The translations under genes and the position numbers were made by a program. A DNA stretch of 64,000 nt. Source: Haliotis asinina (Eukaryota > Mollusca > Gastropoda > Lepetellida > Haliotidae). Shown one piece after another: positions 5,161-60,680 of the stretch (positions are counted from its first letter, which is position 1; each line of letters begins with the position of its first letter). The stretch covers positions 56,095,673-56,159,672 of the forward strand of contig NC_090288.1 of NCBI RefSeq assembly GCF_037392515.1, given 5' to 3'. The notes below the pieces were generated by a model that was given only the letters and a program-made list of their open reading frames with translations, was not told the DNA's origin and made no database searches.

Positions 5161-5207
5161 TGTCTAATTGGTTCACAGTAAAGGGAGGTAACCCTTAAGT
5201 GGCTGTT

Positions 5208-5474: not shown

Positions 5475-5493
5475 GTTTACTTATATAGGTATT

Positions 5494-5919: not shown

Positions 5920-5927
5920 CCCTATAT

Positions 5928-6155: not shown

Positions 6156-6181
6156 TATGTATATGATATAAAATATTAAAA

Positions 6182-6998: not shown

Positions 6999-7119
6999 CT
7001 TATAATATAACAAGTAAGATTTAGTTTTAACTATATAATACCCGATGCAGACAAAACACAGAGAAATGAAGGTTAAGTTGCACACGACAAATACTTCAAA
7101 TATCATAGCTATATGCTTA

Positions 7120-7179
7120 GCATTTGCTTAGCTTTGCTTAGCTTTGCTTAGCTTTGCTTAGCTTTGCTTAGCTTTAGCA
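7120..7179. repeat. 10-bp tandem repeat GCTTTGCTTA in the Polinton
   Basis: Four exact copies at 7,131-7,170 with degenerate copies on both sides. It fills the gap between the ATPase stop and the start region of the next downstream gene, and slightly overlaps the ATPase stop codon. Probably a slippage repeat; a regulatory role is possible but not shown. Confidence 0.85.
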
Positions 7180-9058: not shown

Positions 9059-9091
9059 TGTTATATATAAATAAAATATATTTTAATACTA
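9059..9091. promoter_or_regulatory. AT-rich divergent spacer beside the capsid gene
   Basis: About 33 bp, almost all A/T, with TATATATAA and AAATATATTTTAA blocks between the major capsid gene (-) and the rightward gene (+). It is likely a compact divergent promoter, by analogy with 11,405-11,433. Confidence 0.5.
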
Positions 9092-9177
9092 ATGGATGAA
9101 GACATAGATATGACGGAGATGCCGGGCGCTAGTGCCAGGCATCTGATGAGCAGGAGACCTCATTTACTAGTTCACCA

Positions 9178-10257
9178 TTGAACCAAGAACTTTTGGCAAC
9201 AACGGTAGATGATTATTACGAAAGTTTAAGAAGTGATAAATACTACGTTGATCCACAGGGCCGATACCTTGATAATTTTTTTATTGATACAAAGGGTGTT
9301 CTACGCCTTAAGTCTAAACCAGAGGTTGACCTCGTTAACAAGCGCAATAAAAAACCACTGGCCTTGTCAACTCTAGCCAGACGCCATGGTGTCGAATTTA
9401 TCCGTGAACATCTAAACATGCATGATTACGTTGGTGCAATACCTAAGGCCGTTGTTGAAGATCTGCAAGCTACCAGATCCCACCTCACCACTAGAGATGA
9501 AATGACACCACAGCGTGCTACAGAAGCCTCGGACAGCATAGAAAAACTGTTGAGCACCTACTGGGACAAACCGTTACCGGGGTTTGACTTTCCGGTAAGG
9601 GAACTGCACGGCTTAGACGAAGCCGTGAAACGCGTGCGTGGAGAACTCGTGAACAACATGGGGAAACTGAACGAAATCGATGAGCACATCGCTAAGGAAA
9701 AAACCAAACTCAACGAAACTGAAAACGATGATATGAAGCGTCGTATCAATGAACGACTACGTGATTTAGAAGACGAGAGACGTACACGATTGGAAGCCGC
9801 TTCCTCGAATCGTGAACAGCTTCGATCCCAGATCAGTCGCATTCGGGAAACAATCGATAGAATACTGAACGAGGATACAACTTTAGCCAACAGGATTCGG
9901 ATATTGTTCCGGGAGCAAGGGATCACCATCGCCAGCATTCTGACTGCATTGGGTTTCATCATATCAACCCTGGTGGTGTCACTGGTGGGGGGAACCCCCA
10001 CACCCCCCACACCTGGCGGCGGGGGAACTCCAAGTGGCGGTGGGGTTAAAGACTGGATAAAAAAACTCGGGGAAGGCCTAGCTAAACTAGCTGGTAAAGC
10101 CGCCGAAGCCCTTCCCGGCATCCTGGGTAGCATCGTCTCGTGGTTGTTGGGCGCTCTGGCTAAAACTGCCATGTGGCTCAGTCAAAACATGTGGGCAGTC
10201 ATCATCGCCGTGGCGGGTCTGGTGTACGTAGCGGCTAAGAAATCTTTAACCAAATAA
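9178..10257 (+). CDS. Coiled-coil membrane protein with GGTPTPP linker (Polinton)
   Basis: The recognisable frame covers about 359 residues; the N-terminal limit is approximate. Residues about 145-240 are a long charged coiled coil (LNEIDEHIAKEKTKLNE..., LRDLEDERRTRLEAA). A transmembrane helix follows (ILTALGFIISTLVVSLVGG), then a Gly/Pro/Thr linker (GGTPTPPTPGGGG), an amphipathic region (WIKKLGEGLAKLAGKAAEAL) and two further hydrophobic helices (GSIVSWLLGAL, MWAVIIAVAGLVYVA). I have seen this layout in other animal Polintons but know no proven role. A membrane-active virion protein is inference. Its 3' end overlaps the end of the convergent 389-aa gene. Confidence 0.75.
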   Translation: MNQELLATTVDDYYESLRSDKYYVDPQGRYLDNFFIDTKGVLRLKSKPEVDLVNKRNKKPLALSTLARRHGVEFIREHLNMHDYVGAIPKAVVEDLQATRSHLTTRDEMTPQRATEASDSIEKLLSTYWDKPLPGFDFPVRELHGLDEAVKRVRGELVNNMGKLNEIDEHIAKEKTKLNETENDDMKRRINERLRDLEDERRTRLEAASSNREQLRSQISRIRETIDRILNEDTTLANRIRILFREQGITIASILTALGFIISTLVVSLVGGTPTPPTPGGGGTPSGGGVKDWIKKLGEGLAKLAGKAAEALPGILGSIVSWLLGALAKTAMWLSQNMWAVIIAVAGLVYVAAKKSLTK

Positions 10258-11404
10258 GTCCCAAAGTTACCCCACCAACCACCAGGGCCGTTTTATTATC
10301 AATATGCTCCTGATAGGAGGCCTGAATATGGGGGGCCACCTCCTGTGGTGTTGGTTGAACTTTAGGCTCCGGGGGCGGCGCAACTATACCCGTTTCACGT
10401 GGTGGGATGTGTGGGATATAGGGGGCGTTAATATCGGGGTTGATACCCAACTTTTGACCCGCCGTGGCTATGACTATTTTGTTGTTATAACCCACCACTT
10501 TTTTTACTCTCAGTTGCATATCACTCGGAGCCATGTACAGCCCCACGCCGAACACGTAATTGACTTTCGATCTGGCGTATTCTAACACGTTTTGGTAACG
10601 GTCGATAGCCCGCGGGATATCAACTGGAGCATTGATAGCATCATCAACGTTGGCAACGAACTGTGTCTGAGCGTCGTAAGCAGTTCCCTTACCTAGGATG
10701 TTGGAACGCGTCATCGACTGCGCACCCAACAGCGCCCACACGTACGTTCGAATCGAGTCGTTCAAGCGTATTGTACCAGCACGAGTGAATTCTTTCGATG
10801 TTTTTGAGATCATTTTAGTCCAGGCTGTGGCTGCATCAGGATTGATTTGCTTTATACAGCTGACATGGATCTTTTCATTCGTTGTGGGGCCTGTAAATGT
10901 ATGTTTGCTTGGGTTGTATGAACCATCTTTAGAACCGGCCCTATATGTTCCGGACCTGTAGAAGTACACGAGAACTATACCGAGACCATGGTTCACACCA
11001 GGAAGGCGAAAGTCTTTATTCGTTGGAATCTCAAACTCCCCACAAATACGTTCATAAGCGCGTCTATCATAGCCGTTATTCGTCATACTCCACCCTATAT
11101 CTTGGGGAAGAGGGGCCTTTATTTCCTTCAATATTCGTCTCGTTTGATAATAAATATGAAACAAAATAACCGCCTTACTCAGTTCGTCTATACCGTAGTC
11201 TGGTGTCACACCCGACCCTGTCGTCGCACACCACACAGCAAAGTTGAGTTGGTTCTGCCAAAACTGCATTGGGTTTTGATTCCAGTTTACCACCGCCTGA
11301 TCGTTATTAACGGACACGATATAGTTTTCAAAGATATCAATAAAGGTTGTTTTAAACCCCGTACCATCTGCATTCACCACGATTTTCAAGTGTGCTAAAT
11401 CCAT
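10235..11404 (-). CDS. Conserved-looking Polinton protein with C-terminal anchor, 389 aa
   Basis: A soluble mixed alpha/beta body of about 340 residues, a Pro-rich spacer (VAPPPEPKVQPTPQE) and one C-terminal hydrophobic helix (TALVVGGVTLGLIWL). It is one of only two genes in the right half that run leftward, and it is divergently paired with the penton-like gene across a 29-bp promoter. I do not recognise the fold. Size and shared promoter suggest a structural or assembly protein made together with the minor capsid protein. Confidence 0.65.
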   Translation of the reverse strand: MDLAHLKIVVNADGTGFKTTFIDIFENYIVSVNNDQAVVNWNQNPMQFWQNQLNFAVWCATTGSGVTPDYGIDELSKAVILFHIYYQTRRILKEIKAPLPQDIGWSMTNNGYDRRAYERICGEFEIPTNKDFRLPGVNHGLGIVLVYFYRSGTYRAGSKDGSYNPSKHTFTGPTTNEKIHVSCIKQINPDAATAWTKMISKTSKEFTRAGTIRLNDSIRTYVWALLGAQSMTRSNILGKGTAYDAQTQFVANVDDAINAPVDIPRAIDRYQNVLEYARSKVNYVFGVGLYMAPSDMQLRVKKVVGYNNKIVIATAGQKLGINPDINAPYIPHIPPRETGIVAPPPEPKVQPTPQEVAPHIQASYQEHIDNKTALVVGGVTLGLIWLKIS

Positions 11405-11433
11405 ATTATAATATATAATTCATATATTATAAT
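11405..11433. promoter_or_regulatory. 29-bp bidirectional promoter made of an inverted repeat
   Basis: The whole space between two divergent start codons is a near-palindrome: ATTATAATATAT at the left and its exact inverse ATATATTATAAT at the right, with AATTC between. Each arm puts TATAAT-like DNA directly next to an ATG, so transcripts would have almost no leader, or initiation must lie further inside the genes. Confidence 0.75.
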
Positions 11434-12087
11434 ATGTACATAACACTTCCAGGAATAACGAGCGGTGAGGCCGTTCAGCTGACGCACGCGATCGATAACA
11501 CGTCAGGTCAACTCGAAGTCGCACTCTGCGATATCACCTACCTACCGCAATGGACTAACATCAACGCCAGCAACAATAAGCTGTTCGTCAGTGGAACTCG
11601 CAGTCAGATAACTGACGGCTACTACAGCGTGTGCTCTCTAAACGACGAGGTCTTCAAACCCCTGGGAGCCGAACTCAAGATGAACGACTCAAACGGCACA
11701 GTGGTGTTAATCAACAACGGAAGAACCTCCTTGAGGCTCGGCCGACCATTAGCGAGGATACTCGGTATGTCTCCTGACGAGATAAAACCAACAACAACCG
11801 TCACAGGTACGAAGTTACCCGACCTAGTACCGTACCGAGAGCTGTACATTCATCTCGGTCAGGTGAGCACAACGTACAACATTCAAGGAGGTCACCCTTC
11901 CACTATACTGAGAGCAGTGCCGGTGAAAACTGAGAAATACAACGACGGTAGAACCGAGTCGTTTTCACCACGGCAGTATAAGAGATTAACCCAGGGCAAC
12001 ATACCTGAGCTGATAATATCGGTGTTAGATATAAATCATAATCCTGTAAATATAGGATACCTCAGCTTAACGCTTCATGTAAAATGA
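11434..12087 (+). CDS. PY: Polinton minor capsid protein (penton-like, single jelly-roll)
   Basis: 217 residues with the feature order of the PY/penton family: an N-terminal strand (MYITLPGITSG), early strand motif LEVALCDITYLPQW, the ITDGYYSVCSLNDEV segment that matches the 'IPDGYY...eLn' signature of these proteins, a central RLGRPLARILGM segment, LYIHLGQVSTTYNI, and a C-terminal strand pair ending IGYLSLTLHVK. In related elements this protein forms the capsid vertices. The stop overlaps the start of the next gene by 4 bp, which suggests a co-expressed capsid/fibre block. The call is from pattern recognition. Confidence 0.8.
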   Translation: MYITLPGITSGEAVQLTHAIDNTSGQLEVALCDITYLPQWTNINASNNKLFVSGTRSQITDGYYSVCSLNDEVFKPLGAELKMNDSNGTVVLINNGRTSLRLGRPLARILGMSPDEIKPTTTVTGTKLPDLVPYRELYIHLGQVSTTYNIQGGHPSTILRAVPVKTEKYNDGRTESFSPRQYKRLTQGNIPELIISVLDINHNPVNIGYLSLTLHVK

Positions 12088-12992
12088 CCAGCGCACAAGG
12101 GCCCGGAGTTAAAAAATGCGTCAATATCGGGCTCTCCGACCTTGGAGACATGCGCGGTTTCGACGCTCCCGGAGTAGATGGTAAATCGTACGCCTTGCAA
12201 CTGAAAAACAACATTTACAAACGCGTTGAAATCCCCTCCGGTGGAACCCTAAGTGATATAGTAGATACCACAAGAGCAACAGTCAACACTAAGTACACCC
12301 TTGTCAACACCGGTAATAACTGGATAATATACCCATCGTTCGGGGGTAAACTGTTCGACTTAGACGATGTTGAGAGCACTACCGTCGCCCGAAACAAGCC
12401 ATATATGCTCGTCTTCACCGAAGATGACAAGTGGGTGTTGTTACCCGATAACGACTGGTTTCTCAATATTAGACTCGTCTCCCCTTACGTGTTTACTGAT
12501 AACAAAGACAACCACCTAAACAAAGTCGTGAACAATGGAACCCTGCTCGTGGCTTACGTCCCAACTCAGAGACGTAGCGTAGTCGTCAGCCCAGTCAACA
12601 CTATGGCAGCCCACATGCTATTGAGTAAACTGACCATACAAAACGTGACATTGCAGTTGGTGTCTGAATTCGAAGGCGTGGTTAAGATACTAGAGAGTCT
12701 ACCGGCAAACTCAACACTGATCATCAAAGTCTACCTAGGGGAACCATCGGGGAATGATGTCGAGATCGTGAAGGGGATCAAACTCGGGTGGGTGAAACAA
12801 CACCAGTATCAAGTTTGCAACGTTTACGTGCGGGTGGGTGTTGGAGCCGACACCAGTATGGAGGGGGTCAACGTGTTCGTGGAAAACAAGATATCACTAA
12901 CCAAGATCTTCCTGCCTAACAACATACACTTCATGGGTATGAAGTTAACTCCTGAATTATTATCAAAAAACCAGTTGGAAATTATATCGTAA
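12084..12992 (+). CDS. Putative fibre-like protein A (Polinton)
   Basis: 302 residues. The N-terminal 45 residues (LSDLGDMRGFD..., YALQLKNNIYKRVEIP) match the next gene's N-terminus (LNDLGDTEGFD..., YILHFKDNVYRRVPLP). The rest diverges but keeps an LNIRLVSPYVF / LINLTFTSPYI block and a similar end, and is beta-rich. The C-terminal pattern (strand, then LTPELLSKNQL) recalls laminin-G/concanavalin-like domains. A shared short tail joined to a variable beta domain, placed right after the penton-like gene, is what a vertex-anchored attachment fibre would look like. Function is inference. Confidence 0.65.
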   Translation: MTSAQGPGVKKCVNIGLSDLGDMRGFDAPGVDGKSYALQLKNNIYKRVEIPSGGTLSDIVDTTRATVNTKYTLVNTGNNWIIYPSFGGKLFDLDDVESTTVARNKPYMLVFTEDDKWVLLPDNDWFLNIRLVSPYVFTDNKDNHLNKVVNNGTLLVAYVPTQRRSVVVSPVNTMAAHMLLSKLTIQNVTLQLVSEFEGVVKILESLPANSTLIIKVYLGEPSGNDVEIVKGIKLGWVKQHQYQVCNVYVRVGVGADTSMEGVNVFVENKISLTKIFLPNNIHFMGMKLTPELLSKNQLEIIS

Positions 12993-13002
12993 TAGTATAA
13001 TA

Positions 13003-13677
13003 ATGACCAGTCATCGTCCCAACACTACGCTTAACGACCTAGGAGATACGGAGGGATTCGATCAGCCTGGTGAGGAAGATGAATTATACATCCTGCACTT
13101 CAAAGACAACGTGTACAGACGGGTGCCGTTACCAGATTTAAAAGAGCCCAAATGGCTGATCAACTTAACATTCACCTCACCTTATATCACATTAAATAAT
13201 GGGGTTGTCTCTAAGATTAAGAACAACGGTATCTGGGCCGGGGATTTCATTCCGGAGAATACATTAGTACACATAGCATCTACTGGTTACGAAAAAAAGG
13301 GGTTAAGTGCTTATCCAAACAATAAATTAACATTTAGCAGTAATCTTGATAGAATATCCTCCCCTTTCACCCTCATCATAGAAGTCTTCTTTACGTCTTT
13401 ATTCCATGGAACCTCCCCAATAGTACACCAAATTTTACCCGGGGTGTCAATACGCTGGTCTTACATAGACCAATATTGTCGTATTGTTATACAACGGGAT
13501 ACCACGGGTCCTATAAACCACTTAATAAGCCTCCGTGGGGTTTCTATTACAACAGGAAATTCTATTAGCCTCTCACCTATTGCCCTGACTAGTAGTCTAG
13601 AACTTGTAGACTTCAAATTCATTGATAGATTTTTAACTGAAACCCAATTAAAATATCTTTCAAAATATACATTATAG
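13003..13677 (+). CDS. Putative fibre-like protein B, paralogue of the preceding gene
   Basis: 224 residues and shorter than its paralogue: it lacks the about 70-residue segment that follows the N-terminal tail there. It shares the tail (LNDLGDTEGFDQPG), the LINLTFTSPYI block and a C-terminal FIDRFLTETQLKYLSK segment that resembles the end of LamG/ConA-like lectin domains. The gene is preceded by AATAGTATAATA directly before the ATG. The copies are clearly paralogous but far diverged, so the duplication is much older than this insertion. Confidence 0.65.
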   Translation: MTSHRPNTTLNDLGDTEGFDQPGEEDELYILHFKDNVYRRVPLPDLKEPKWLINLTFTSPYITLNNGVVSKIKNNGIWAGDFIPENTLVHIASTGYEKKGLSAYPNNKLTFSSNLDRISSPFTLIIEVFFTSLFHGTSPIVHQILPGVSIRWSYIDQYCRIVIQRDTTGPINHLISLRGVSITTGNSISLSPIALTSSLELVDFKFIDRFLTETQLKYLSKYTL

Positions 13678-13678
13678 G

Positions 13679-14296
13679 ATGGGTCTGTACCCAGTCGTAG
13701 AGGAAGTAGCGAAGACGCTGGAAACCGTAGATGGGTTCCGCTTGAGGCAGTTATGTGATGTGAAACGCCAACTAGAACAAGACCGTGACACGCGGAAAGC
13801 ACTATGTAAAAAGTATAATAGAGCTTTCAATATCGTGGACGGGGCTGACACTACCCTTATGGCAACCAGCATGGGACTAGGGGCGGCAGGTGTTGGGTTG
13901 TTGGCTACCATCGTGGCTGCACCTATAGTGCTAGGTATTGAAATAACGGCAGGGGTGGCAGGGTTGGCAGGGTTGGCGCTTAAGTTAGTATCACGCAGAC
14001 TGCATCGTAAGGCATTGAAACACGACGAGATCAGGGTTCTGGCCGAAGCAAAGCTCAACACAGTGAGTGAGCGTATTTCCACGGCACTCTCTGATAGTAA
14101 GATCTCAGAAGAGGAGTTTCGTTCAATCCTCTCTGAACTCACAAAATATAACGGAATGAAACAAGATATTCGGTCCAAGTCTCGTAAGTCTGCTATCAGC
14201 GAGGACGAGAAAAAAAAGTACATAGAACAGGGGATACAAAAAGCCCAGCAAGCCTTTATTACGAACACCAAAGTGATCGTAGGCGGTTCACATTAA
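13679..14296 (+). CDS. 205-aa Polinton protein with a central hydrophobic region
   Basis: Residues 1-50 are charged and helical (VDGFRLRQLCDVKRQLEQDR). Residues about 60-100 are a long Gly/Ala/Leu-rich hydrophobic stretch (MGLGAAGVGLLATIVAAP, ITAGVAGLAGLALKL) able to form one or two membrane helices, and the last 100 residues are helical and basic. I have seen the N-terminal pattern in other animal Polintons but know no role. The gene sits last before the right TIR, one base after the previous stop, with ATACATTATAGG ahead of the ATG. Confidence 0.7.
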   Translation: MGLYPVVEEVAKTLETVDGFRLRQLCDVKRQLEQDRDTRKALCKKYNRAFNIVDGADTTLMATSMGLGAAGVGLLATIVAAPIVLGIEITAGVAGLAGLALKLVSRRLHRKALKHDEIRVLAEAKLNTVSERISTALSDSKISEEEFRSILSELTKYNGMKQDIRSKSRKSAISEDEKKKYIEQGIQKAQQAFITNTKVIVGGSH

Positions 14297-36700: not shown

Positions 36701-39700
36701 TCTGTACCGACAGGTGAATAAGAGGAGGACGTTAGATAGAGATAGGCACAGGGCAGAAGATAGTTCTTCGGCACCTAATAAGGCAAAAAAAAGACAGCAC
36801 AGCGTTCTGCATCTAGATCGGCAGATGAAGACTTTTTACAGGAGACATCAGATGCTTACCTTAGTGAGGATCTCAGGCAGTTATTTCATCCGTCGACTTT
36901 GGGGAGTTTAAGGGACGCTAGTGTAGTTTCGTCACCACCACGCATGGTAGTGCTTTCTCAACCACCAGTCGTTTCCCGCCTGATGTCGGTTGTTACGATT
37001 TTGGATCACTCATCCATTCAGCAAATGGATCTTCATTCTTTAACCCCTTCGAATGTGGCTTGATCGTCTTCACGAGATCGTGACATCCCATAGCATTTGA
37101 GTGAGTCATACAAAGGGAATCGTTTGAGAGCGTTATCCCATCCTTTGCGTGGTAGTGATTCGATTCACAGGGAAGCGTTTTGTGATGTGTCTTTCGCTCA
37201 GCCTCATGGAATTGATGCGGCAATTTGCAATGCACCTGTGGTGGGTGAATCTGGGGCATCGATTATTCACCAGCATGGTTCAGTGCTTCCTTGCGTTGAT
37301 CTTACTCCAGTGATTCCCCAATGGATTCGTTCCAGTGCATCAGCGTGTTTCGATTCACCGGTTGCAAGTAGTACTTTGTTTACGGGTGTGCCAAGTGGAA
37401 TCACCGCTTCGATTTCTCAGAGTGGTTTCTGTTCGGTGCCGATTCACAGGGTAGTGACTCAACATGCTGGGTTGAGTGGAAACAGTTTCGTGAGTGTGGG
37501 ATGCGGGAGTGCACCTCTTGTTTCTATGTCAGTTCCACATGTGCTTACTTCAGCGGTGAGGGCGCCTTTAGTTACATGTTCGACGGGGTATTCAGGTGTT
37601 ACGGGAGCAACGTATGGTGTACTGCATTCGACTGCTGCATCTAGCTTACCAGTTTCATGGGTTCCGGGATCGGAAGCAGTTACGTCACAGCCCATGGACT
37701 TTGATGATTTTGTATTGCGAGTTGCTGCGGTGCTTCGGCGTCAGGATCCGGTGACTCCCGTCTCGTTGCCTGTAACCACATCACAGACTGCAGCATCTCA
37801 TGAGTTGGCTAGACTTCGGCGATTGGCTACACTGTCTCCGTCGTCAGATGGTCCTTTGAGTACTGATGGAAGTTTTGATGCGGATGATACATCCTCACTG
37901 CTTGTGTGGATCACTGATGAACTACAATTACAGTGTAGTACATCTTCGGATGATACATTGTCTACTTTTATCATGAAGTCTGGCGATTTTAGTTCGATTA
38001 CATTCCCTCCTAGGCTATGCATTTCTCAGCTGGTTACTTCGTTGGATCCAGTATTCACCAATATGAGGAAGATTAAGGATGGTTTTACCTCGCCTTGTTT
38101 CAAGCTGTCTGCGGCGCATATCCATGGGTTCTCTTCGTTGATCACATCCCTGCCAGTTGATGATGATATTTCACTTCTGGGTTCGAAGTAGAGGTCCTAT
38201 TCTCCCTTTATGGTAGAACACCAGGAGTTGAGGCACTTGGATTCGTTGAATAGGAAGATTTTGGCACCCTTGAACATGGTACTCATGACTTTTGATGGAG
38301 TAGCCATGGCACTGCAACATGCTTCTATGCACCAACAAGCTTATATCAGGGCAGTGATGGGTTTGATACAGGAACAATTCAACTGCATTTTGGAGTTGAT
38401 TGCACATTTCCTTTCGTACTTGACAGCCATGTGCAGGAGGGGTCTGTTGCAGTTGTCGTCGTGGGAGGACAGATTTCGTACGGACCTATTCTGTCAACCA
38501 TGGTTGGGCAGGATGCTCTTCAACGGCGCTATTAGGGAAGTGGCTAGCAAGGTGAGCCAAGACGCGCACGTGCAGGTGTCTGTGGAGCTTTTGAAGAAGC
38601 AGAGATTGCAGATGGAGGAATCTGCAAAACAGTGTTGATCTGCACGGTATGAGCCCTCCAATCTGGATTTGCTTGCAAGTGTCAATTTATCTTTTCGAGG
38701 CAGAGGTAACAGGGGCCGTACAAATCGACAGAGGTGATCAGACCCTAGACCCAATGGGGGATCTGGCCTGGCTAACCCCAGGAAGACAGCTAAGCAGTGA
38801 CTCAGGGACATCAGAGCCAGACTGGGTTCTTCTGCCTCCAGTGGTACCGATCCGTCCTTCCCCCGTAGGAGGAAGATTGGGTTTTTATGCGGTGAATTGG
38901 ATGTTTCTTGAAGATGCATTTGTGATGTCCATTCTGTCCAACAGGTATCTGTTGATGATTGTGGGGAAGCCTCCCTTGACCAGGTCACCGGTGCGGTATT
39001 CGACACTCAGGTCAGCAAACAATTTGTGCAAAGGGTGAGGTTTGACAAGATGTCACGTCTGATACCCCTGGCCTTGTCTCAGCCCAGGACGCTCCGGCAA
39101 TGGCAGGAGCTTGTGGGGTTACTGTCGTCTGCTCAGGCTCTCACTTGCAGGGGTCAACTTCAGCTTCAACCCTTGCAAATGTTTCTTGCTCCTCATATCA
39201 GGAAGGGCGACCTGTCCGCATTGATCATGTTACCCAGGGAACTTCATTCTCATCTACTATGGTGGATGCAAGAATCGAACGTTTGCGGCGGAGTTCGTTT
39301 AGAGCCGTTGGTGCCATTTCACCACCTGTATGTGGATGCGTCACTACATGGGTTTGGAGCTCACCTTCTCAATCAGCAAATGGCAGGGCAGTGGTCTCCC
39401 GCAGATCACGTGTGCCACATCAATGTTTTGGAACTCAGGGCATTAATTTTTGCGACCACTCATTGGCGAGAACAACTAAGAGGCATCCAGAGGTGTTCAG
39501 GGCTATTTCCCTCCTGCTGATGGAGACGACTATAGACCCGTTCGCCACCAGATTCAATCATCAACTGCTGCTGCTTGTGTCCCTGATTCCAGATCCATTA
39601 GTCTGGGGACTAGACGTCCTGGCAATTCTGTGGGACGGTCTCAACGCTTATGCATTTCTGCCAGTGGCCCTTCTTCCACGTGTACTTCTCAAGTTACGTT

Positions 39701-41750
39701 CGACTTGGCAGATGACAATGCTTTTGGTTGCGCCCTTTTGGCTGACAAGGAGTTGGGTCGTAGAGCTAACTGATCCAGATCCAGTGCCACTTCCCGTCAC
39801 ATCTGCTGGTGCATCCACACTACCGATTAAGTACACTGGTCTCCACTAACGCTTCATCTGCACGTTTGGCACTTTTGCATCGGTCATTAACAGCCAAGGG
39901 TTATTGTAAACGTGTTGCTACTGCCATGGCTACAGAGCATCGTACATCCACCAGGTCGCTTTATGACAAGTCGAAGAATTTTGAGTCGTATTGATGAGGG
40001 AAGGGCATTATGTCTCCCACGACAGCATCGCCACAGATGGTTGCAGAGTATCTTCAACACCTACAGCACAAATTACTATAATTTCAAGTTATTTGTCAGA
40101 AATCCTATTGGTGTAAGGCCATTTCTGAACACTTATTGATTATCGTAAAACGAGTAGAAAAGTTTAATTTTTGCAGATTAAGTGTAAAAGGTTTAATTTA
40201 ATGGTCAAAATTGTAATAATTACCCCCAAAATATAAAGACTGGCGTCTCTGCTGCTGATGCCATCTAGTTCATTGTTAGTGTTAATAATGTTACAATATT
40301 GTTGAAAGCATCATAAAACTCCACTAACTCACTCAAATGACTCATTCTCTCACCATGTTAATGAATATTTATATATTCCTTGTTATGTCCAGAATTTTTC
40401 TCTAAACAGGATGGAGATATTTTTGTAAATAAAACTTTACGATGATTTGTTAGTGATAGAATTAATGAAACATCTAAACTGTGACTGAAACATGTATTGT
40501 CATCATAATGATTTCCGGTCTTCTGGAATAAGGCAGCTTTGCACCATTAATTTACTGAGAGATTACGGAATGTCATGGTGAATGTTTGTTGTAGGCGATA
40601 TTGTATGTCAGGGATTGGTGATTTCCTCTTAGTATTTTAACTACTAAGTCAAAAATTTGAATTATGTATGGTTAAATCATATTGTAAGTGTGAATTTAGT
40701 GCCATGTACTATATTTTTGTTGTGTGTAACTGTTGCATAACTATCAACACATTAGGATGTGTAGAAAAATCACAATTTAAGAGAATTTGTGAAACATTTG
40801 GAAGTTTGGAGTAATGAGTGTACTGTTACACTTTTCATTTAAATGTTGTCCTTATTCCCTCAGTTTGAAGGTGAGCTACGATACCTAGCGTAATGTGTAC
40901 CTGTATATGTTTTCAGTATGAGGAAGGTTTGAATTCTTTCTTTCTTTCATCATTGAAACCCATCCTGGCCTGTCAGAGTCATGTGACCTCACCCCATCTC
41001 ACTATAAGGCCACCCACCTCTCCCATCCACAAGGTCAATTCACCCAATCTCACCCTAAGGCCACTCTACCTGACCTCACCACCAGGCCACTCATGTAAAC
41101 CAATCTCACCCCAGGCCATCCCACCTCATCTCACCACAAGGCCACCTCACCCTAACTCACCTCAAGGCCACCTCACCTCAAGCTCACCTTACCTCATTTC
41201 ACCCCAAAGCCACTCCACATCACCTCACCCAAAGGCCACCTCACCAAACCCCAAGACCACTTCACCTTATCTCACCCAAAGCTCACCTTAACTCACACCA
41301 AGACCATCCCACCTCACCTAATCCAAAGGCCTTCCTACTTCACCTCACCCCAAGGCCACCCCACCTCACCTCACTCCACCCTAAGGCTATCGCACCTAAT
41401 CCTACCCCAAGACCACCCCATCTGACCATTAGTTATAGTATTACACCAGTACAGGGTTTAAGATACTTGTCTTCAATAAGTCATTACATAGGTGAGCTTC
41501 AGTACCTTAGTTGCTGAGAGCAGTTCTGACCTTCACCTTCCTTTATTATTGTAGGTGTCACGAGGCTACAGAAGGTGCAGAGCAGACTTTACGCTGGCAG
41601 CGTCTCGATGCAGTGTGGCGCATGTTCCACAATGCGTACAGCAACTCGGTTGTTTTCCGTCCTGGGGCGGAGGCTGGCAGCGGTGCAATATCCACTCTGT
41701 TGGAGAAAGTAGGAATCAAATCCTCAGGGAAATCTAACTCTGTTGTTTAA
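18745..41750 (+). CDS. MTMR14: Myotubularin-related protein 14 (phosphoinositide 3-phosphatase), 18 exons seen
   Basis: Exons: 18745-18801, 19252-19355, 20631-20739, 21329-21404, 22833-22881, 23479-23595, 24197-24270, 25259-25329, 25581-25658, 25865-25928, 28160-28322, 29193-29229, 31019-31083, 31325-31425, 32761-32887, 33274-33453, 35072-35194, 41555-41750. All have AG/GT borders and agreeing phases, 1,791 nt in total (596 codons plus stop). The protein follows human MTMR14 from its start region (LLLFAKDYIYS) through ICRSATLSSGAEMYGRSG, GYICDLMVEKKKVKFGM, the CX5R active site CISGWDR, a Ser-rich tail and the C-terminal AISTLLEKVGI. The enzyme removes the 3-phosphate of PI3P and PI(3,5)P2 and restrains autophagy. 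As usual for MTMR14, no PH-GRAM domain is seen. The first coding exon (about 50 residues in human) is missing from view. Confidence 0.95.
21630..22147. mobile_element. TIR-bounded element, about 518 bp, in MTMR14 intron 4
   Basis: The ends are inverse copies over about 30 bp: TACTTGTCATATCTTCCTAC at the left continues into GAACCTCTGT, and the right end reads back as TACTTGTATTATGTTCCTAC then GAACCTCTGT. No coding capacity is seen. I could not find a clear target duplication, so the superfamily is open. Confidence 0.6.
24282..24960. repeat. Minisatellite (GTCTGTATGGTCTG family) in MTMR14 intron 7
   Basis: About 680 bp of units of roughly 10-24 bp built on TGTCTGTATGGTCTGG. A longer block (GGTATGAGGTGTACTGTTTG... 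to GTGATGTCTGTATGG) recurs near 24,580, 24,740 and 24,885, a higher-order period of about 150 bp. The open frame on the plus strand here is a repeat artefact. Confidence 0.9.
25984..26222 (+). mobile_element. SINE-like repeat, type 2 (GATCGGRTGGTC family)
   Basis: It contains the blocks shared by this family in the window: 'ggcga...gtggtcc...tgacttgattgacacat', 'gatgctcat..tgttgatcactggattgtctggt' and 'acagaccgtcaccatacag'. Other copies lie near 50.2, 51.1, 55.5, 58.45 and 62.7 kb. It is in MTMR14 intron 10. Confidence 0.7.
26354..26843. mobile_element. Mutator-like MITE, family I copy 1 (490 bp, 9-bp target duplication)
   Basis: Long inverted ends of about 75 bp (CATCCTCGATATCTCCAGGG... with ACGTTCCGAAAAGTCTCCAC) and the exact 9-bp duplication GGAATATGG at 26,345-26,353 and 26,844-26,852. 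No transposase is coded. A 9-bp duplication with long TIRs fits Mutator-like elements best. A relative of 523 bp is at 52,165-52,687. Confidence 0.85.
26853..27690 (+). mobile_element. 5'-truncated LINE (CR1/L2-like) fragment
   Basis: This is the reverse transcriptase C-terminal half of a non-LTR retrotransposon: LSHGVPQGSVLGPILFLLYV, then NADDTQL where the active site should read YADD, SDSKTELLI, VYIDSNHSLEAHINHL and ISSIRRYITTDCAHALVRS. The frame shifts at least once (near 27,290), so it is dead. The 3' part ends near GCGCCTTCAGTGAGCATC and an ATT-rich tail (27,658-27,690), as is usual for CR1/L2 3' ends. It lies in MTMR14 intron 10. Confidence 0.82.
27797..27905 (+). mobile_element. tRNA-SINE 3' fragment
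   Basis: It carries the body and tail of the SINE (GGTACAATATATGAAACCTG, GTTTCTGGTGTCCCCTGCTG, GGAATATCGCTGTAAGTGACG, then ACTCACTCACTC). The tRNA-like head is missing. Confidence 0.7.
28160..28322 (+). CDS. MTMR14: MTMR14 catalytic exon
   Basis: This exon carries HCISGWDRTPLF, the CX5R phosphatase loop with the catalytic Cys and the phosphate-binding Arg both present, followed by LLRLSLWADGS and LGYDWYLFG. The active enzyme is therefore expected to be functional. The exon is flanked by CCAG and GGGTGAGT. Confidence 0.95.
28924..29069 (+). mobile_element. Chimeric SINE copy (type 2 head, tRNA-SINE tail)
   Basis: The first half (CTTCAGTAACCCATGGGTCG, GCTTGCTGACTTGGTTGACA) is from the type 2 family and the second half (GGTTACAATGTGCGAAGGCC ... 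CTCACTCACTC) from the tRNA-SINE. It lies in MTMR14 intron 11. Confidence 0.6.
31499..31655 (+). mobile_element. tRNA-derived SINE, near full length
   Basis: The head has Pol III promoter-like boxes (GTAGCCTAAGGGTTAAAG as A box, CTGGGTTCCATTCC as B box), then AATGTGTGAAGCCCATTTCT, then the conserved tail TGATATTGCTGAAATATTAC and an ACTC-rich end. It lies in MTMR14 intron 14. Confidence 0.82.
31897..32262 (+). repeat. Dispersed repeat, copy 1 of a pair
   Basis: It shares the order of blocks with 60,960-61,345: 'accacacgc...gcacatgcac...gcc', 'catg.attttgacattttt', 'cgataaatcac' and 'ctcaaaacat...atcaacattgat'. The type is unknown; no coding is seen. A tRNA-SINE tail fragment follows at about 32,252-32,345. 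Confidence 0.55.
33103..33204. repeat. (TCAC)n microsatellite
   Basis: About 100 bp of TCAC/ACTC repeats in MTMR14 intron 15. The same motif ends the local SINE tails, so it probably grew from one. Confidence 0.95.
33650..33738. repeat. Perfect 22-bp inverted repeat (hairpin) in MTMR14 intron 16
   Basis: The arm at 33,650-33,671 (AAATTATAATAGCTCTAAAT + TT) is exactly inverse to 33,717-33,738, with a 45-nt loop. It may be a young tiny MITE or a hairpin in the intron RNA. Confidence 0.8.
34938..35020. repeat. Short minisatellite (CATGGTCTATGCTGAGTCTG units)
   Basis: About four units of 20-22 bp just upstream of the MTMR14 exon at 35,072. Confidence 0.8.
35722..35812. mobile_element. Short foldback MITE, copy 2 (related to 16,343-16,434)
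   Basis: The ends TTCACAAAGTGATCTTAGCG and GCACTAAGATCACTTTGTAC are inverse to each other. It lies in MTMR14 intron 17. Confidence 0.7.
37097..38191 (+). CDS. Gag-like open frame of the DIRS fossil
   Basis: 364 codons, Ser/Thr/Val-rich, with low similarity to anything I can name. Its place ahead of the reverse transcriptase region and its size fit the poorly conserved gag-like protein of DIRS elements. It belongs to a broken element and is not a host gene. Confidence 0.6.
   Translation: MSESYKGNRLRALSHPLRGSDSIHREAFCDVSFAQPHGIDAAICNAPVVGESGASIIHQHGSVLPCVDLTPVIPQWIRSSASACFDSPVASSTLFTGVPSGITASISQSGFCSVPIHRVVTQHAGLSGNSFVSVGCGSAPLVSMSVPHVLTSAVRAPLVTCSTGYSGVTGATYGVLHSTAASSLPVSWVPGSEAVTSQPMDFDDFVLRVAAVLRRQDPVTPVSLPVTTSQTAASHELARLRRLATLSPSSDGPLSTDGSFDADDTSSLLVWITDELQLQCSTSSDDTLSTFIMKSGDFSSITFPPRLCISQLVTSLDPVFTNMRKIKDGFTSPCFKLSAAHIHGFSSLITSLPVDDDISLLGSK
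38650..39850 (+). pseudogene. Reverse transcriptase / RNase H remains of the DIRS fossil
   Basis: Recognisable patches are LSQPRTLRQWQELVGLLSSA, LPRELHSHLLWWMQES, LYVDASLHGFGAHLLNQQMA, HINVLELRALIFATTHW and DPFATRFNHQL, all standard for the connection, RNase H and post-RNase H parts of DIRS polyproteins. It is broken in more than one place. Confidence 0.8.
40978..41420. repeat. C-rich minisatellite (CACCTCACCCCAAGGCCACC) in MTMR14 intron 17
   Basis: About 440 bp of degenerate units of 17-30 bp on CCTCACCYCAAGGCCAC, strongly strand-biased (almost no G outside the AAGGCC motif). The proline-rich open frame inside is a repeat artefact. Confidence 0.9.
41555..41750 (+). CDS. MTMR14: MTMR14 last exon
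   Basis: The acceptor GTAG lies before GTGTCACGAG. The exon codes RLDAVWRMFHNAYSNSV and AISTLLEKVGI, matching the conserved C-terminus of MTMR14, and ends at TAA 41,748-41,750. Phase fits the exon at 35,072-35,194, across a 6.4-kb intron that holds the DIRS fossil. Confidence 0.93.
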
Positions 41751-50485: not shown

Positions 50486-53400
50486 ATGGGGACTGAGGTC
50501 AAGGCTATTGTTGTGGGCGACGCGGGATGTGGAAAGTCGTGTCTTGTTCTCCGGTTCTTAAAGGGTCACTTCATTACGGGCGACGAACAGAAGTCCTCCT
50601 TTGAGACTGGCACGGCCAACGTCTTTGTTCAAGGGCAGAAGGTTTGTGGGCATGTGACACATTCAAACAAACATAGTACTCTGAGGCTTTAACGCGCTGA
50701 GTGAAGTTTTACGTCGCATTATCTCAGTCATAGCGACGAGACCAAGTCTGTAGACATGGACATTACAAGTACTAAGCATTTTTTTTTTAAAAAAAAACAT
50801 ATCTACTCAATGCATCATTATCTACAAAAAAGGTCATAGCTCACAATTCTTACAAATCATCACCCAGATCAACCTCTAATAGTTCACAATGAGATGCGGG
50901 GCGACTGTAACGAATACAATGCGACCAATGTAGTTTGGTATAGCCGTAGTCTAGTTAAACGGTACATCACATGGTCGGGACATAAAGTCAGTTCGCGTCA
51001 TTTTACTATATGTGTGATGATTATTATCATTATGACTAGACCCGTGATTCTCCAGATAAAAGGCAACTTTGCTTGTAAGAGGCAACTAACGGGATCGGAT
51101 GGTCTGGCTCGCTGACTTGGTTGACACATGCCATCGGTTCCCAATTGCCCAGATCGATGGTCATGTTGTTAATCACTGGATTGTCTGGTCCAGGCTCGAT
51201 TATTTAGAGACCGCCACCATAGAGCTGGAATATTGCTGACTGAGCCTTAAAACTATACTCACTCACTCTCTCATTATGACAAACCTGAGACTCAAACCTA
51301 TATAAAGGATCCTCTTCAGACGAAGGGATAGAATATTGTGGGTGCCGAAAAACAAACCCTGGCGTGCTTATCCCCAAATATTATGCCTGAATGTTGGATG
51401 AAAATAATATACTTCGAAAAAGAACGGCTACTCATTGTTACTTGATAATTATTCTTCAAGATATTCGGGAGGGTGCATACCACTGCGAGAACATCAGTAC
51501 CTTTAGCAATCTTAAACGATATCATTTACATGTACTGAACAGAAATAGTTTCGAAAAAATGAAATCTCACAAAAGTAAGCGTTCATGTTTTCTATTTAAA
51601 ACCTTGCCTAAAAGCCAGAGTTGCGTTTCTTTTGCTCTACAGTATAGGATTTAAGCCACATTTAGGAATGATTCAGAAATGTCATTGCGAAAAGCACCAC
51701 TCGTTACACTCATACACTGAGACCATATATCTATTACATGTATATGATCTCCGCTGCATGGGTCGCACAAAAACCTAGTTGGAGGTCGCGTTTGGTAACC
51801 TTTGAGATTGACCAATCAGAGAACAGCCTACCAAATCGTAACAGTGGACATTCGCACATACCTTCTGACGTTTTACCCACGCAAAGGTTTGTACCCGAAC
51901 GATTCCGAATGCTACTTTCCCTACGGTCGCTTCGGGTGATGCGCATGGAGCACTCTACAACAGTGAATAAAGTCTCTGAAAATGGCGTTTTGGGGAATAT
52001 TCAAGTATGTCAGCTTGCGGAAATATTAGCAAATGGTAACCATGTCAACAGAAACCAAAAAACGCGTATGTACTGCAGATCAAATATCAGTGTTATATGC
52101 GGATGTTCGCTTGTTACGAGATCATTGTCAGTGACCGGTGTATTTTGTAAGTCCCACCAAACCCCAACCTCGATATCTCCAGGGTATGAAGTTCCGATAA
52201 CTGTCCACTATACCCTGGATGCATCTACGGCTAAGCCAGATAAATGTACTGCCTCCCTTGGCTGGCTTTTTATCCAGTCAGGTGTATACACTGGGAACTT
52301 GAGCGAACCAATCACAACTCACTTTTGTATTTCAAATTATCTAACCGATTATATTTCGCAAAACGAAGCATGCACAGGTTCCCTGAAAGAGGCAGCCAGA
52401 GTTCTTGCATATATTTTATTCCGATTTTCGGACCTATCAATGTGTCTGTCTGATTTCCCCCAAATTGTGAGTCGCAGGGCGAGTAAACCTTCGTAGTTGC
52501 GACTGCTACCTTTGTTGACACTGACAAGTTCAACTGTAACGGCGGTTAAGCCGATTGGCTACTATGAGAATGCGGACCCAGCAACGGGAGGTAATAAAGG
52601 TTAGGGACCGAGCCGTAGATGCATCCAGGATATACATGTAGTGGAGACTTATCGGAACGTAATACCCAGCTGGAGATATCGAGGATGACCAAACCCTAAA
52701 CAGTAGCCTTTGTCTGATTGGATAAATCCGTTTAGCCGTCTCACATTTGATTGGACGGTCACAGGTCCTCAAAGGTTGCCTGACGCGACCTCCTACTAGG
52801 TTTTGTTAGAGTGTAGGAGTGTAACGAATAACACCGAGGCTAAGTTTACTTCGACTGTCTACCTTCCTATCCCCCTTAAAAAAATATGAGTGAGCGTGTT
52901 GTTTCGTGTTCAGTTTTGTTTTTATATTCCAGAAATGTCAGGTCAAAAATGGGTTTACCAAATGTAAAGTTAACATATGGGACATCAAATCCACAAACAC
53001 TACCGCTGGGCTTCACCGTTCGTAATGTCATCTCGGGGCATCATCTGTCAGATGCTGATCTTCACCTTTTCATCTCTGACAGGTAGAGTTGATGATTTGT
53101 GACACCGACAGCAGCAGCCTGTTTGACAGCCTGCGTCAACTGTCCTACAACGACGGAGACGTTATTGTCATGTGCTACTCCGTCACCGACCGGGAATCGT
53201 TGCAAAATGTGTTAGAGAAATGGCGGCCAGAGATGATGGACAATGTCACCTCTGATCGCCCCATAATCCTAGTGGCAACGAAGAAGGACCTTCGAGACCC
53301 CGGCCTCTCTTTCAGCAACGTCCGAGGCAGTTGCTTTCTTCACCAGGAGCCAGTGACCACTCTCGAGGGTCAAGAGATGGAAAAAATGCTTCACGCCGTG

Positions 53401-53520
53401 GACTTTTTTGAATGCTCGGCAAAACGTGACGTCGGCGTGCGAGAGGTGTTTCAGAGAGTGGCCGAGGTTGGATTGGAGTCCAGTCGGTCACGGCGAAAGA
53501 AGGTTTGTCGGCCTTCATGA
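50486..53520 (+). CDS. Rho-family GTPase-like protein, 197 aa, changed G3 motif
   Basis: Two exons, 50,486-50,641 and 53,083-53,520, phase 0. G1 is GDAGCGKS (P-loop Lys and Ser kept) and G4 is TKKDLRD. G5 is ECSAKRDVGVREVF, very Rho-like, preceded by QEPVTTLEGQEMEKML as in RhoA/Rac. Rho landmarks LSYNDGDVIVMCYSV and EKWRPEM follow the fold. G3 reads DTDSSS where Rho proteins have DTAGQE, so the catalytic Gln is missing, and the switch I Thr is not in its usual context (QKSSFET). It should bind nucleotide but hydrolyse poorly, as atypical Rho proteins do. The C-terminus is basic (SRSRRKK) and ends CRPS, a weak CAAX-like box; a further spliced exon after KK is possible, since GTTTGT follows. 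Confidence 0.85.
51035..51275 (+). mobile_element. SINE-like repeat, type 2
   Basis: Full order of the family: AAGAGGCAACTAACGGGATC, GGTCTGGCTCGCTGACTTGG, TTGACACATGCCATCGGTTC, ATCACTGGATTGTCTGGTCC, AGACCGCCACCATAGAGCTG, then GGAATATTGCTGACTGAG and ACTCACTCACTC. It lies in the intron of the first Rho-like gene. Confidence 0.85.
51533..51644. mobile_element. Mariner-like MITE, family III copy 2
   Basis: The ends TACTGAACAG and TTTCTTTTGCTCTACAGTA, with the inner AAAAGCCAGAGTTGCGTTTC, match the copy at 45,125-45,261. Confidence 0.75.
51765..52857. mobile_element. Mutator-like MITE, family II copy 2, split by a family I element
   Basis: Left part 51,765-52,164 (AAACCTAGTTGGAGGTCGCG, CCAATCAGAGAACAGCCTAC, AAAGGTTTGTACCCGAACGA) and right part 52,697-52,857 (TAAACAGTAGCCTTTGTCTG to TTTACTTCGACTG) match 45,425-46,058 in order. 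The left terminus has lost its outer part. The insertion point corresponds to ACCATACCCTAAACAG in copy 1. Confidence 0.82.
52165..52687. mobile_element. Mutator-like MITE, family I copy 2 (523 bp), nested
   Basis: It matches 26,354-26,843 end to end, with CTCGATATCTCCAGGGTA and inverse ends. The exact 9-bp duplication ACCAAACCC lies at 52,156-52,164 and 52,688-52,696. It lies inside family II copy 2. Confidence 0.88.
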
Positions 53521-55985: not shown

Positions 55986-56598
55986 TACCCTACAACAGTG
56001 GCCCCAACGCTCAACAACTAGAATGAAAGACCGTGAGCTTCCGCGCCGAGATACGTGTCAACAACTGGCAACAATGCGAGTTCCGGGGTGAGGTGGATCC
56101 TGTCGTTGTACAAGCAGCTTTTGTGACGACAACGTTAGTACGCGGTGTTGTCACTTCCGTCTTCAGTGTTACTGGATGGAGCCTATACAACTACTGACAT
56201 ATTCTACGAAAGACCCTTTGAAGCAACTGTAAAGGTAAATAACATATAATAACTCTGAAAAGATGTTACGAGATGCCGCTTGCAATATACATATTACTAA
56301 AAGCAAATCTGTACATACCACACTGAATTTCCCATGCATAGTTCTGTGCTGGTATCATGCATGGCTGTTTATCTTGTATCTCGATCATTGTTAAACTTCT
56401 TTTAAATGCGAATGTATCATTGTATCTGCAATCTCGGGATCATACAGATGAGCAGAAATAGTAATTTTGGGTACTTTATCATAAATTACATTTTAAGAAA
56501 TGGACGTTCCTTGTAATAGTGTTATCTATAAGATATATATGTGTGTAATAGGCATATTGATAATAAGAGCACTAGAGCAGGAGGTGCCTGGATCGACA

Positions 56599-56637
56599 GC
56601 ACTACTACTACTACTGTTACTGCTGCTGCTGCTGCTA

Positions 56638-56685
<48 letters not shown>

Positions 56686-56745
56686 CTTCTACTACCACTA
56701 CTACTACTACTACTGCTGCTACCGCTGGTACTACTGTTACTGCTT

Positions 56746-56807
<62 letters not shown>

Positions 56808-56886
56808 GCTTCTTCTACTACCACCACTACTACTACTACTACTGCTGCTACCGCTGCTACTACTGTTACTGCTACTGCCACTACAT
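56599..56886. repeat. Trinucleotide repeat (CTA/CTG)n, about 290 bp
   Basis: Blocks of CTA and CTG alternate with a few CTT and CCG units, in a pattern that itself repeats (about 56,600-56,735 and 56,745-56,880). Open frames run through it in several frames as poly-Leu, Ser, Thr, Ala or Val, which shows they are artefacts. Confidence 0.95.
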
Positions 56887-57959: not shown

Positions 57960-60680
57960 ATGCCAGCTCGCAACATTCACGCCCTCATCCACGGCCAGGC
58001 TGAATCAGGGGTGACAACTCTCATCATGCGCTGGGTGAGCGGCCGGCTTCCGACCTCCATGGAAGAGCTCACTCTGCCTTATAATGGCGTCAAAAACACA
58101 AGCATCCTGCTGGAAGGACAGAAAACGTCGGTAAGACTTTGACACTAATAACAGACTTATTTCGTTACTACTTTCAAGGGATGCCGAAGACCCGCGTTCG
58201 ATTGTGTGCAGCTAGTTTTCTGTAATGATTGTATTTTCTACTTCAGATATGGGACATGCCAGTTAGTTAGTCTCACAGAACGGTAAAAGCGTACGCTTAG
58301 ACTTTACACTTACTAAAGTACACTTACCAGTAAGGGCATAGGGAAACACCTAAATTCCGAAAATATACTAGTAACATTTGATTTGTTGATTTGTTTCTTG
58401 TTTTACGCCACATTTAGCAATATTCCAGCTATATGTTGCGGTCTGTAAAAAAATCGATTCTGGACCAGACAATGCAGTGATCAACATTATGAGTATCGAT
58501 CTACGACATGTGTCAACCAAATCGCATGGATTTCTGAAGACATATTTGCAGGACCACCCTTGTCGGTGTTAGGGCTACTCTTTCTAATGTATGGAACTTA
58601 TATAACGTTAAAATAACGCTCTCCGCTCTCCTGTAACATAAGACCATATGTAACATATGAAGAGTTTCATTTAGATTCATACCCCACAAATACTTACTAT
58701 GTTTTTGTTGAAATGGATTTCTCACTGGTTTTTTGTCGTTTGCTGTATTATCAAGCAAAGAAAATCTCATATCGAAAGGTTACTACTTGTACTGACAAAT
58801 TTGCGAGATGCGTTTTCACTTCGAACACTCCAATCGAAAAGAAGAATCTAATATATTGTTTTCTGTTTAAGGAGGTTGTCATGGTGACACTTATAGACGG
58901 GGGTGTGTTCCATGGTGACGAGGAAGGTCTGAGAAGTGTCTGTGGAAAAGTTGACGTCATTGTTGCATGCACCTGTGTCAAAGTTGATGACACCGACCTT
59001 CCCGGCATACGGCGCATCAACAAGCTGCTGGGTGCACGAAGACCGCCAGTTATCGTCCTTGGGACAATGTCGGACTTGCGAGATGAAGGCAGAGATACGT
59101 TACCGCTTCTTACAGCGTTAGCTTGTAGTGATGATGTGGAAGAGCCTCAGCACGTGATGGGGGAGACAGGGAAGGGATCACGTGACGCGCGATCGTCTGG
59201 ATACCGTGAGCTGAGAGAGGAACCAAGGAGGCTTGGTAACCATGGACATGGAAGGAAACCTAGTCCAGATCAGACTCCGTCTGTCACGTCGGAACAGTCT
59301 ATTGATGTGGAAGTATTTGAGGAAAAGAGTCCACTGTTGCCGGTGTCAACACGACAGTGTCCCCAGGACCAAAGTATCGAGAGAAGCAGCACCAATGAGC
59401 AGGGTGTTGCTGAAGGAGCGACACCGCCGCCATTTATGCCTGGTCAGTTTCAAGTCACGGTTAGCATAGAGAATCCTGACCTTCAGAAGGTAGACATTGT
59501 TGGGTCGAACACTCGGGAGCTAGGTGTTCCGGAGACAAATGGACAGGTTCAGTTCAGTGAAAAGGAATCATTCCCAGTCATACCTGAATCTGATGATATT
59601 GAAGAGACAAGTGTGATTCTGAATGAAAGCAGTTTGTCGAAACTGGAATTAACCATAGAGAATCTTAAAAGGCACAGCATAAAGGAGGGTGATCAGGAAC
59701 CGGAAATATGTTCAATTGGAGATGACTGTTCCGCTGTGGAGAGACTTTTGCTGTCAGACGGGGAGGCGAGTGACGTCACTGGATCAGACAGACAAGTAGC
59801 ATCGCCCACTGATCTCGAGTTTGCTCACATAGAGCATGATTTGTCGTCTTTGAGCAGGGAGTTGATGAACATCTCATCCCATCGAATGAACCCTCACTAC
59901 TGGTCGACGGAATCCATCAACGGATCTGTTGACTCATATCTGGACCGCTCCAGAGACGAGATCAGTTTGCCGGGGTCGGCCAGTAACAGACCACTGAGAC
60001 AAAAGGAGCACGTTCCACATTCCACTCAACCTTTACACCAACTGGACCGCTCAAACTCAAACCACAAAGGCGTGAAAGGTGACGAAGTGAACCATTCGTC
60101 AAAAAACGTCACGTCACCTATCAAACCCTTGTTAGAAACCCACTTTCCAGCCAGTTCTGATACATCGTTCACTGTCAAGTATTTCCCATCTGGCCCGAAT
60201 TCAAACTCCAGGATATCAAATCAAATGGAAACTCCTGTCTCCACCTCCACAGACTGTTCCCAAACATCACAGCACAACAACAATTCGTGGACAGACAGTA
60301 CCGATAAATCTGGTAAGTGTGATGGGTGTATTGCCAGTGGAGCTGAAGGCACGTCTACTACCTCCGCGTTGCATCATGGGGAGATTTCCACATCGTTCTC
60401 TTCATTGTTACCGGAAGTGAAGAACCTTCACATAAGCCTGGATCTTGCTCCCGTGACACTGATCGACCCTTACCCAGGCAAGGCTCTATTGAAGGGGGTT
60501 AACAGTGGTGGGTTTCTAAGTATGGAAGACGGAAGTCGTTGTGTTAAGAATCTCCGAGCGGAGCGGTACATGGAGTGTTCTGCCCTGACAGGGGACAATT
60601 TGCACCAGGTGTTTGAATACATGGTCAGGGCAGGATGTAAATATAACAAGAGGAAGAACGCTAAGTGTTTGATATCATGA
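57960..60680 (+). CDS. Pseudo-Rho GTPase with a large disordered insert and CAAX box, 659 aa
   Basis: Exons 57,960-58,130 (57 codons) and 58,872-60,680, phase 0, giving 659 residues. The G1 loop reads GQAESGVTT where Rho has GDGAVGKT, so the P-loop Lys is missing. The G3 area is LIDGGVFHG in place of DTAGQE. G4 is weak (GTMSDLRDE, near 125) but G5 is clear (YMECSALTGDNLHQVF, near 624), followed by a basic tail and CLIS, a good prenylation box. Between G4 and G5, about residues 133-603, lies a Ser/Asp/Glu/Asn/Pro-rich low-complexity insert. It sits where normal Rho proteins carry the short Rho insert helix. The protein is likely a membrane-anchored scaffold that does not cycle GTP. The intron falls at the same place as in the upstream Rho-like gene. 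Confidence 0.82.
58398..58535 (-). mobile_element. Type 2 SINE fragment, minus orientation
   Basis: TTTTACGCCACATTTAGCAA, TATTCCAGCTATATGTTGCG, GATTCTGGACCAGACAATGC, GACATGTGTCAACCAAATCG: inverse of the family consensus. It lies in the intron of the second Rho-like gene. Confidence 0.8.

Follow-up and report, generated by a model that had tools for sequence, protein, structure and literature searches.

A putative Rho-derived pseudoGTPase of abalones with a giant, predicted disordered loop inside its Rho insert

Introduction

Rho proteins are textbook nucleotide switches. Their Rho insert is short, with a typical length given as 13 residues (PMC8305917) or as a range of 10-15 residues (PMC7600811), and it has been described as an effector-contacting surface in FMNL2-Cdc42 (PMC4432619). 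Among the pseudoGTPases as classified in PMC5593906, the class i members p190RhoGAP pG1/pG2 and CENP-M bind no nucleotide, and the Rnd proteins are permanently GTP-bound. Here we describe a two-exon gene of the abalone Haliotis asinina, called pseudo-Rho below, whose product appears to join lost nucleotide motifs and a greatly enlarged Rho insert in one CAAX-ended protein. The gene lies in a 64,000-nucleotide stretch (the window, contig C9:56095673-56159672 of the 1.14-Gb assembly; positions are those of the window unless prefixed with a contig).

An earlier note on this DNA had read the gene as a pseudo-Rho GTPase with a long disordered insert; what we add to that first reading is the tandem Rho array around the gene and its orthologs in other abalones. 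With moderate confidence, and on sequence grounds, we favor a nucleotide-independent, prenylated Rho-fold platform that would present a long loop. PseudoGTPases and atypical Rho proteins are already known, and it is the present combination that appears to be new. We found no published description of this layout in the open literature, a weak negative, as subscription papers fell mostly outside the search.

A single spliced frame is conserved in three Haliotis species

The two exons (Table 1) join in phase 0 into a product of 659 amino acids, with the stop codon at 60678-60680. A protein deposited as "uncharacterized protein [Haliotis asinina]" (P0001) matches it from end to end at 100% identity, in agreement with the earlier proposal of two exons, the second a single open one of 1.8 kb. 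At the stop frequency of the window, 603 open codons would arise by chance with a probability of 3e-15, and the exon-2 frame ranks second by length among the window's stop-to-stop frames. Searched against its own genome at E <= 0.01, the protein matches a single place, namely its two exons.

A search of 5.77 billion proteins, in which 7994 candidates were scored, returned three matches at E <= 0.001: P0001 itself, a full-length ortholog from H. rubra (P0002; 656 amino acids, 81% identity), and a full-length ortholog from H. rufescens (P0003; 671 amino acids, 65% identity), the last representing a cluster of three member sequences. The reading frame is intact in all three species, length changes included. 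A profile built from the three orthologs found nothing beyond the same three at E <= 1 among the 7994 scored candidates, and the joined outer parts of the protein (the insert removed) gave no match at E <= 1e-5 among 4246 candidates; these protein searches require shared exact words and limit length, and more distant relatives may exist. The proteome search that the earlier note had recommended was productive for two further Haliotis species and for no other among the candidates scored.

The outer parts resemble a Rho G domain

Sequence comparison supports the outer parts as a G domain of Rho descent whose nucleotide motifs have degraded. Against a profile built from six of the array's Rho proteins, hhalign gives the joined outer parts a probability of 98.6 over 181 columns (pairwise E 1.3e-15), and with the insert retained the C-terminal part alone aligns. 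A profile search of the PDB with the joined parts returned 151 sequences at E <= 0.1, of which the best 60 are all Rho-family proteins, the top match being RhoU (E 1.5e-6). Both comparisons point to a Rho-type G domain. The Pfam Ras model, with a cut-off of 21.6 bits, is weak on the whole protein at 15.6 bits and falls just short in H. asinina once the insert is removed, at 20.4 bits (E 1.8e-5 for the best of the three orthologs).

Because the alignments among the PDB matches listed begin no earlier than residue 84 of the joined protein, the N-terminal half rests mainly on the profile comparison, the location in the array, the shared intron and the fold prediction. In that prediction, made with Rho rows in the alignment, the joined outer parts form one G domain, which is the closure of the two halves that the earlier note had wished to see checked; AlphaFold with the three orthologs alone in the alignment gave a mean predicted local distance difference test score of 27. 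One spliced frame, an identical deposited protein and the alignment of both halves to the Rho profile agree with the earlier claim that the halves belong to one gene.

Three nucleotide motifs are lost and the C-terminus is kept

The earlier note had reported loss of the P-loop lysine and G3, and both losses recur in all three species together with that of the K/Q residue of G4. In G1, the array genes have GDGACGKT, compared with GQAESGVT in H. asinina, GQTGSGVT in H. rubra and GHTGSGVT in H. rufescens; G3 is DGGVF throughout, against DTAGQ of the Rho paralogs. The G4 motif, GNKKDL in the array genes, is GTMSDL or, in H. rufescens, GTMRDL. In Rho proteins, both N/T and K/Q occur at the respective G4 positions (PMC7600811), so the threonine is not a loss and the true loss in G4 is that of K/Q to methionine. 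The switch I threonine varies among the orthologs, being alanine in H. rubra (EELAL). Since intact G1-G5 motifs are absent, we file the protein as a pseudo-Rho derived from Rho and not as a Rho GTPase.

The retained elements are likewise those named before: G5 (ECSAL) and the CAAX box (CLIS) do not vary among the three species. The wording SAL in G5 is not unusual, as ECSAL also occurs in two other Rho-family loci of the genome (L033 and L046). The C-terminus reads YN[KR]R[KR]NAKCLIS in all three, giving the basic stretch and CAAX box characteristic of the Rho family, and 90% of sites in residues 621-640 and 84% in 641-659 are invariant. Under the rule that a CAAX box with serine as X is farnesylated, CLIS would suggest farnesylation.

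By what is established about G motifs, the joint loss of the P-loop lysine, G3 and the K/Q of G4 makes ordinary nucleotide binding unlikely. Residual binding, as in a class ii or iii pseudoGTPase whose loop would be an effector arm released by the bound state, seems to us quite improbable. G5, the aspartates of G4 and G3 and the threonine after the lost P-loop lysine are retained, and some pseudoGTPases do still bind nucleotide (PMC5593906); however, the lysine, the glycine and glutamine of G3 and the K/Q of G4 are gone from all three species, and the switch I threonine is not constant.

The insert is very probably coding and constrained

MAFFT places the insert at the N/T junction of RNDDN/TKKELSK, within the short Rho insert. 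It therefore lies between G4 and helix alpha4, as in the Rho family, but is 461 residues longer; the position proposed earlier stands, and the length of 470 residues is corrected to 461 (residues 132-592). Residues 143-592 contain 30% Ser/Thr/Pro and carry a net charge of -33, and their charge-hydropathy index of -0.078 falls on the disordered side, compared with 0.269 and 0.022 for the outer parts. No Pfam model matches the insert at E <= 1, a threshold at which the whole protein gives Ras alone.

The insert has a period-3 power of 6.37, whereas the highest value among 70 pieces of the window presumed to be non-coding is 3.99. These controls are what was left of 77 pieces (median 0.82, maximum 24.94) after 7 that overlap a trinucleotide repeat had been dropped. 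Because the insert is open in three species with length changes, its periodicity lies above 70 of 70 controls and it contains a conserved block (below), it is very probably coding and constrained. Much of this evidence bears on a gene-model artefact, in which the insert would be a retained intron or the halves would come from different genes. Deposited protein models may indeed be predictions, but a single open frame of 687 codons, its persistence across the three species, the codon periodicity, the one genomic location and the fit of both halves to one Rho profile lead us to reject this explanation, whose remaining probability we regard as minimal.

Between H. asinina and H. rufescens, the insert differs at 155 of 447 sites and the outer parts at 42 of 198 (Fisher p 0.0006), corresponding to identities of 65% and 79%. 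Predicted disorder agrees with what was first proposed, but the insert is not featureless: it contains conserved blocks, above all residues 366-412, where 6 of 47 sites differ between these two species in a block picked after the alignment had been inspected. Across all three species, 90% of sites in residues 381-400 are invariant. Two further candidate features were discarded: an internal repeat (residues 140-156 versus 294-310) was equaled in score by 6 of 100 shuffles, and an amphipathic peak at 374-391, present at the same place in three species, stayed within the 95% point of shuffled inserts in each.

The conserved blocks also weigh on a decoy role, in which the prenylated Rho-like C-terminus would compete with the RhoA-type neighbors for RhoGDI or prenyl transferases and so tune Rho, the loop being of minor importance. 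Few stretches of the protein are as well conserved as the C-terminal part, and intact Rho genes adjoin the pseudo-Rho gene, but the conservation within the insert would be left unexplained, and we consider such a role unlikely while giving it some weight.

The gene sits in a tandem array of Rho genes

Ten of the Ras-family matches scored across the genome (150, from 445 candidates) lie on C9 at 56.049-56.191 Mb, all on the plus strand, and form part of a tandem array of two-exon Rho genes that includes the pseudo-Rho gene. Besides the pseudo-Rho splice sites, eight acceptors and seven donors were inspected: a phase-0 intron at GKQ/VELA or its equivalent precedes the array's six second exons and recurs in two Rho-like genes on C6. 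The pseudo-Rho intron, at QKTS/EVVM, occupies the array position to within an indel. Pairwise scores put the upstream neighbor closest for exon 1 (48, 56 and 71 with the three orthologs, against <= 35 for seven others) and the downstream gene L017 closest for exon 2 (186, 184 and 191, against <= 173 for nine others).

In the tree, all Rho rows separate from Ras/Rab (100/99), and pseudo-Rho sits on a branch of 4.54 changes per column. The tree, however, groups pseudo-Rho with Rac-like rows (90/97, flagged for a long branch), and a placement outside Rho, with Ras/Rab, is not rejected (approximately unbiased test, p-AU 0.206). The topology tests reject none of the array, the upstream neighbor or a place outside Rho. 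We accordingly base the origin in the array on location, shared intron and pairwise score, not on the tree, and regard pseudo-Rho as a Rho paralog that probably arose by tandem duplication, evolves fast and has been kept in abalones.

The upstream neighbor keeps its P-loop (GDAGCGKS), has lost G3 (DTDSSS) and ends in CRPS, and its Rho insert is longer by three residues. Judged by its sequence, it resembles a less advanced stage of this loosening and is possibly a GTPase-deficient Rho. The loss of three nucleotide motifs in pseudo-Rho, its long branch and the missing G3 of the neighbor might together suggest a decaying pseudogene of the array. We reject this and hold it to be very improbable: full-length proteins of 656-671 amino acids exist in three species, outer parts and insert retain the identities given above, and the losses are common to all three species, so that they are probably older than the split and have been kept since.

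Elsewhere in the array, C9:56049153-56065906 (L011, L012, L013) holds one RhoA exon 1 and, after it, two complete copies of exon 2, which begin at 56059296 and 56065487. As no second exon 1 was found between the copies by tblastn at E <= 1e-3, they may be alternative last exons of a single RhoA gene.

Table 1. Features of the pseudo-Rho gene and its upstream neighbor (window positions)
Feature	Position	Strand	Description
Exon 1	57960..58130	+	57 codons; beta1, degraded P-loop, alpha1, switch I, beta2
Degraded G1	57993..58016	+	GQAESGVT; P-loop Lys to Val in the Rho alignment
Intron	58131..58871	+	GT..AG, phase 0; position common to the array's Rho genes
Exon 2	58872..60680	+	602 codons and stop; beta3 to alpha5, insert included
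Degraded G3	58896..58910	+	DGGVF; identical in three of three species
G4	59061..59078	+	GTMSDL; Met at the K/Q position
Insert	59094..60476	+	residues 132-592, 461 amino acids, inside the Rho insert; predicted disordered
Conserved insert block	59796..59936	+	residues 366-412
Kept G5	60573..60587	+	ECSAL
CAAX box	60666..60677	+	CLIS, preceded by basic stretch YNKRKNAK
Upstream neighbor Rho gene	50486..53520	+	two exons, 50486-50641 and 53083-53520

Other features of the window and genome

A long impure CTA/CTG trinucleotide array occupies 56580-56880, roughly 1 kb upstream of pseudo-Rho. Long frames on both strands at 507-14296 resemble a Maverick/Polinton-type element; by eye, we take them to include integrase-like (325 amino acids), DNA polymerase-like (1236), ATPase-like (219) and capsid-like (426) products. 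Frames at 37094-39849, with a stretch that looks RNase H-like by eye, may belong to a retroelement. ARAGORN, run with the bacterial code, found no tRNA genes in the window. On C8, at 36.37-36.58 Mb, a cluster of divergent Ras-family matches has 11 spanning profile positions 58-158 and 5 spanning 3-58; its locus L040 has FDNSAE where DTAGQE-like letters are expected.

Discussion

In the favored reading, a nucleotide-independent platform with a long loop, the G domain would have become a Rho-fold scaffold that has lost guanine nucleotide binding and cycling, and the basic stretch and CAAX box would tether it to the membrane. The Rho insert, grown by 461 residues, would form a mostly disordered acidic loop whose conserved blocks, chiefly 366-412, would bind partners. 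Output would then be set by expression and loop modification rather than by cycling through guanine nucleotide exchange factors and GTPase-activating proteins. More speculatively, and as a possibility we find attractive but would not yet bet on, a Rho protein may have exchanged its nucleotide switch for a giant effector-contacting loop, a genus-level invention standing beside a second, loosening paralog in the array; the enlarged insert would then supply the entire signaling output, carried on an inactive, prenylated G domain. A retained animal gene without the switch motifs, but with G5, the CAAX box and an insert enlarged by 461 residues, would show that the Rho fold can act as a mere membrane platform, and that the Rho insert tolerates large loops and can be exploited by them. 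The array, with its intact genes, half-degraded neighbor and pseudo-Rho, brings successive stages of such a change together at a single site.

Pseudo-Rho shares with the RhoA-type genes of the array (C9, 56.049-56.191 Mb) its location, strand, two exons, phase-0 intron, G5 and CAAX box, and its nearest pairwise relatives among the rows compared are found there, the neighbor for exon 1 and L017 for exon 2. Unlike it, these genes keep G1-G5 (the neighbor without G3), and their Rho insert is normal or slightly longer. The wording of GTxxDLR and ECSAL and the top PDB profile match, RhoU, recall the RhoU/RhoV and Rac/Cdc42 types, in which we know of no giant insert. As to a RhoU/RhoV placement, there is the PDB match, but the pseudo-Rho branch is very long and no abalone RhoU/V was identified. 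The loci of this genome that are Rac/Cdc42-like by eye (L032, L033, L046 and L047, on C8 and C27) differ from pseudo-Rho in their exon break, their match beginning at RhoA residue 63-64; two ambiguous loci, L040 and L048, were set aside in this comparison.

Among pseudoGTPases, p190RhoGAP pG1/pG2 and CENP-M are not CAAX-ended Rho proteins, and to our knowledge neither has a giant Rho-insert loop. Pseudo-Rho resembles these class i proteins in joining a GTPase fold to lost G motifs (PMC5593906), the fold here being predicted with Rho rows and the motif loss read from the sequence. Identity with Rnd proteins was rejected on the absence of the P-loop lysine in all three pseudo-Rho species. Rnd proteins keep their P-loop. 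They share with pseudo-Rho the Rho family and a degradation near switch II (class ii; PMC5593906). A fusion of RhoBTB or Miro type was likewise rejected, with BTB absent and Ras alone matched in Pfam at E <= 1. Like pseudo-Rho, RhoBTB and Miro are atypical Rho-related proteins far above 20 kDa, RhoBTB being given as 67-83 kDa (PMC4669188). Their extra length, however, consists of recognized domains that lie beyond the first G domain, whereas in pseudo-Rho it lies inside the G domain itself.
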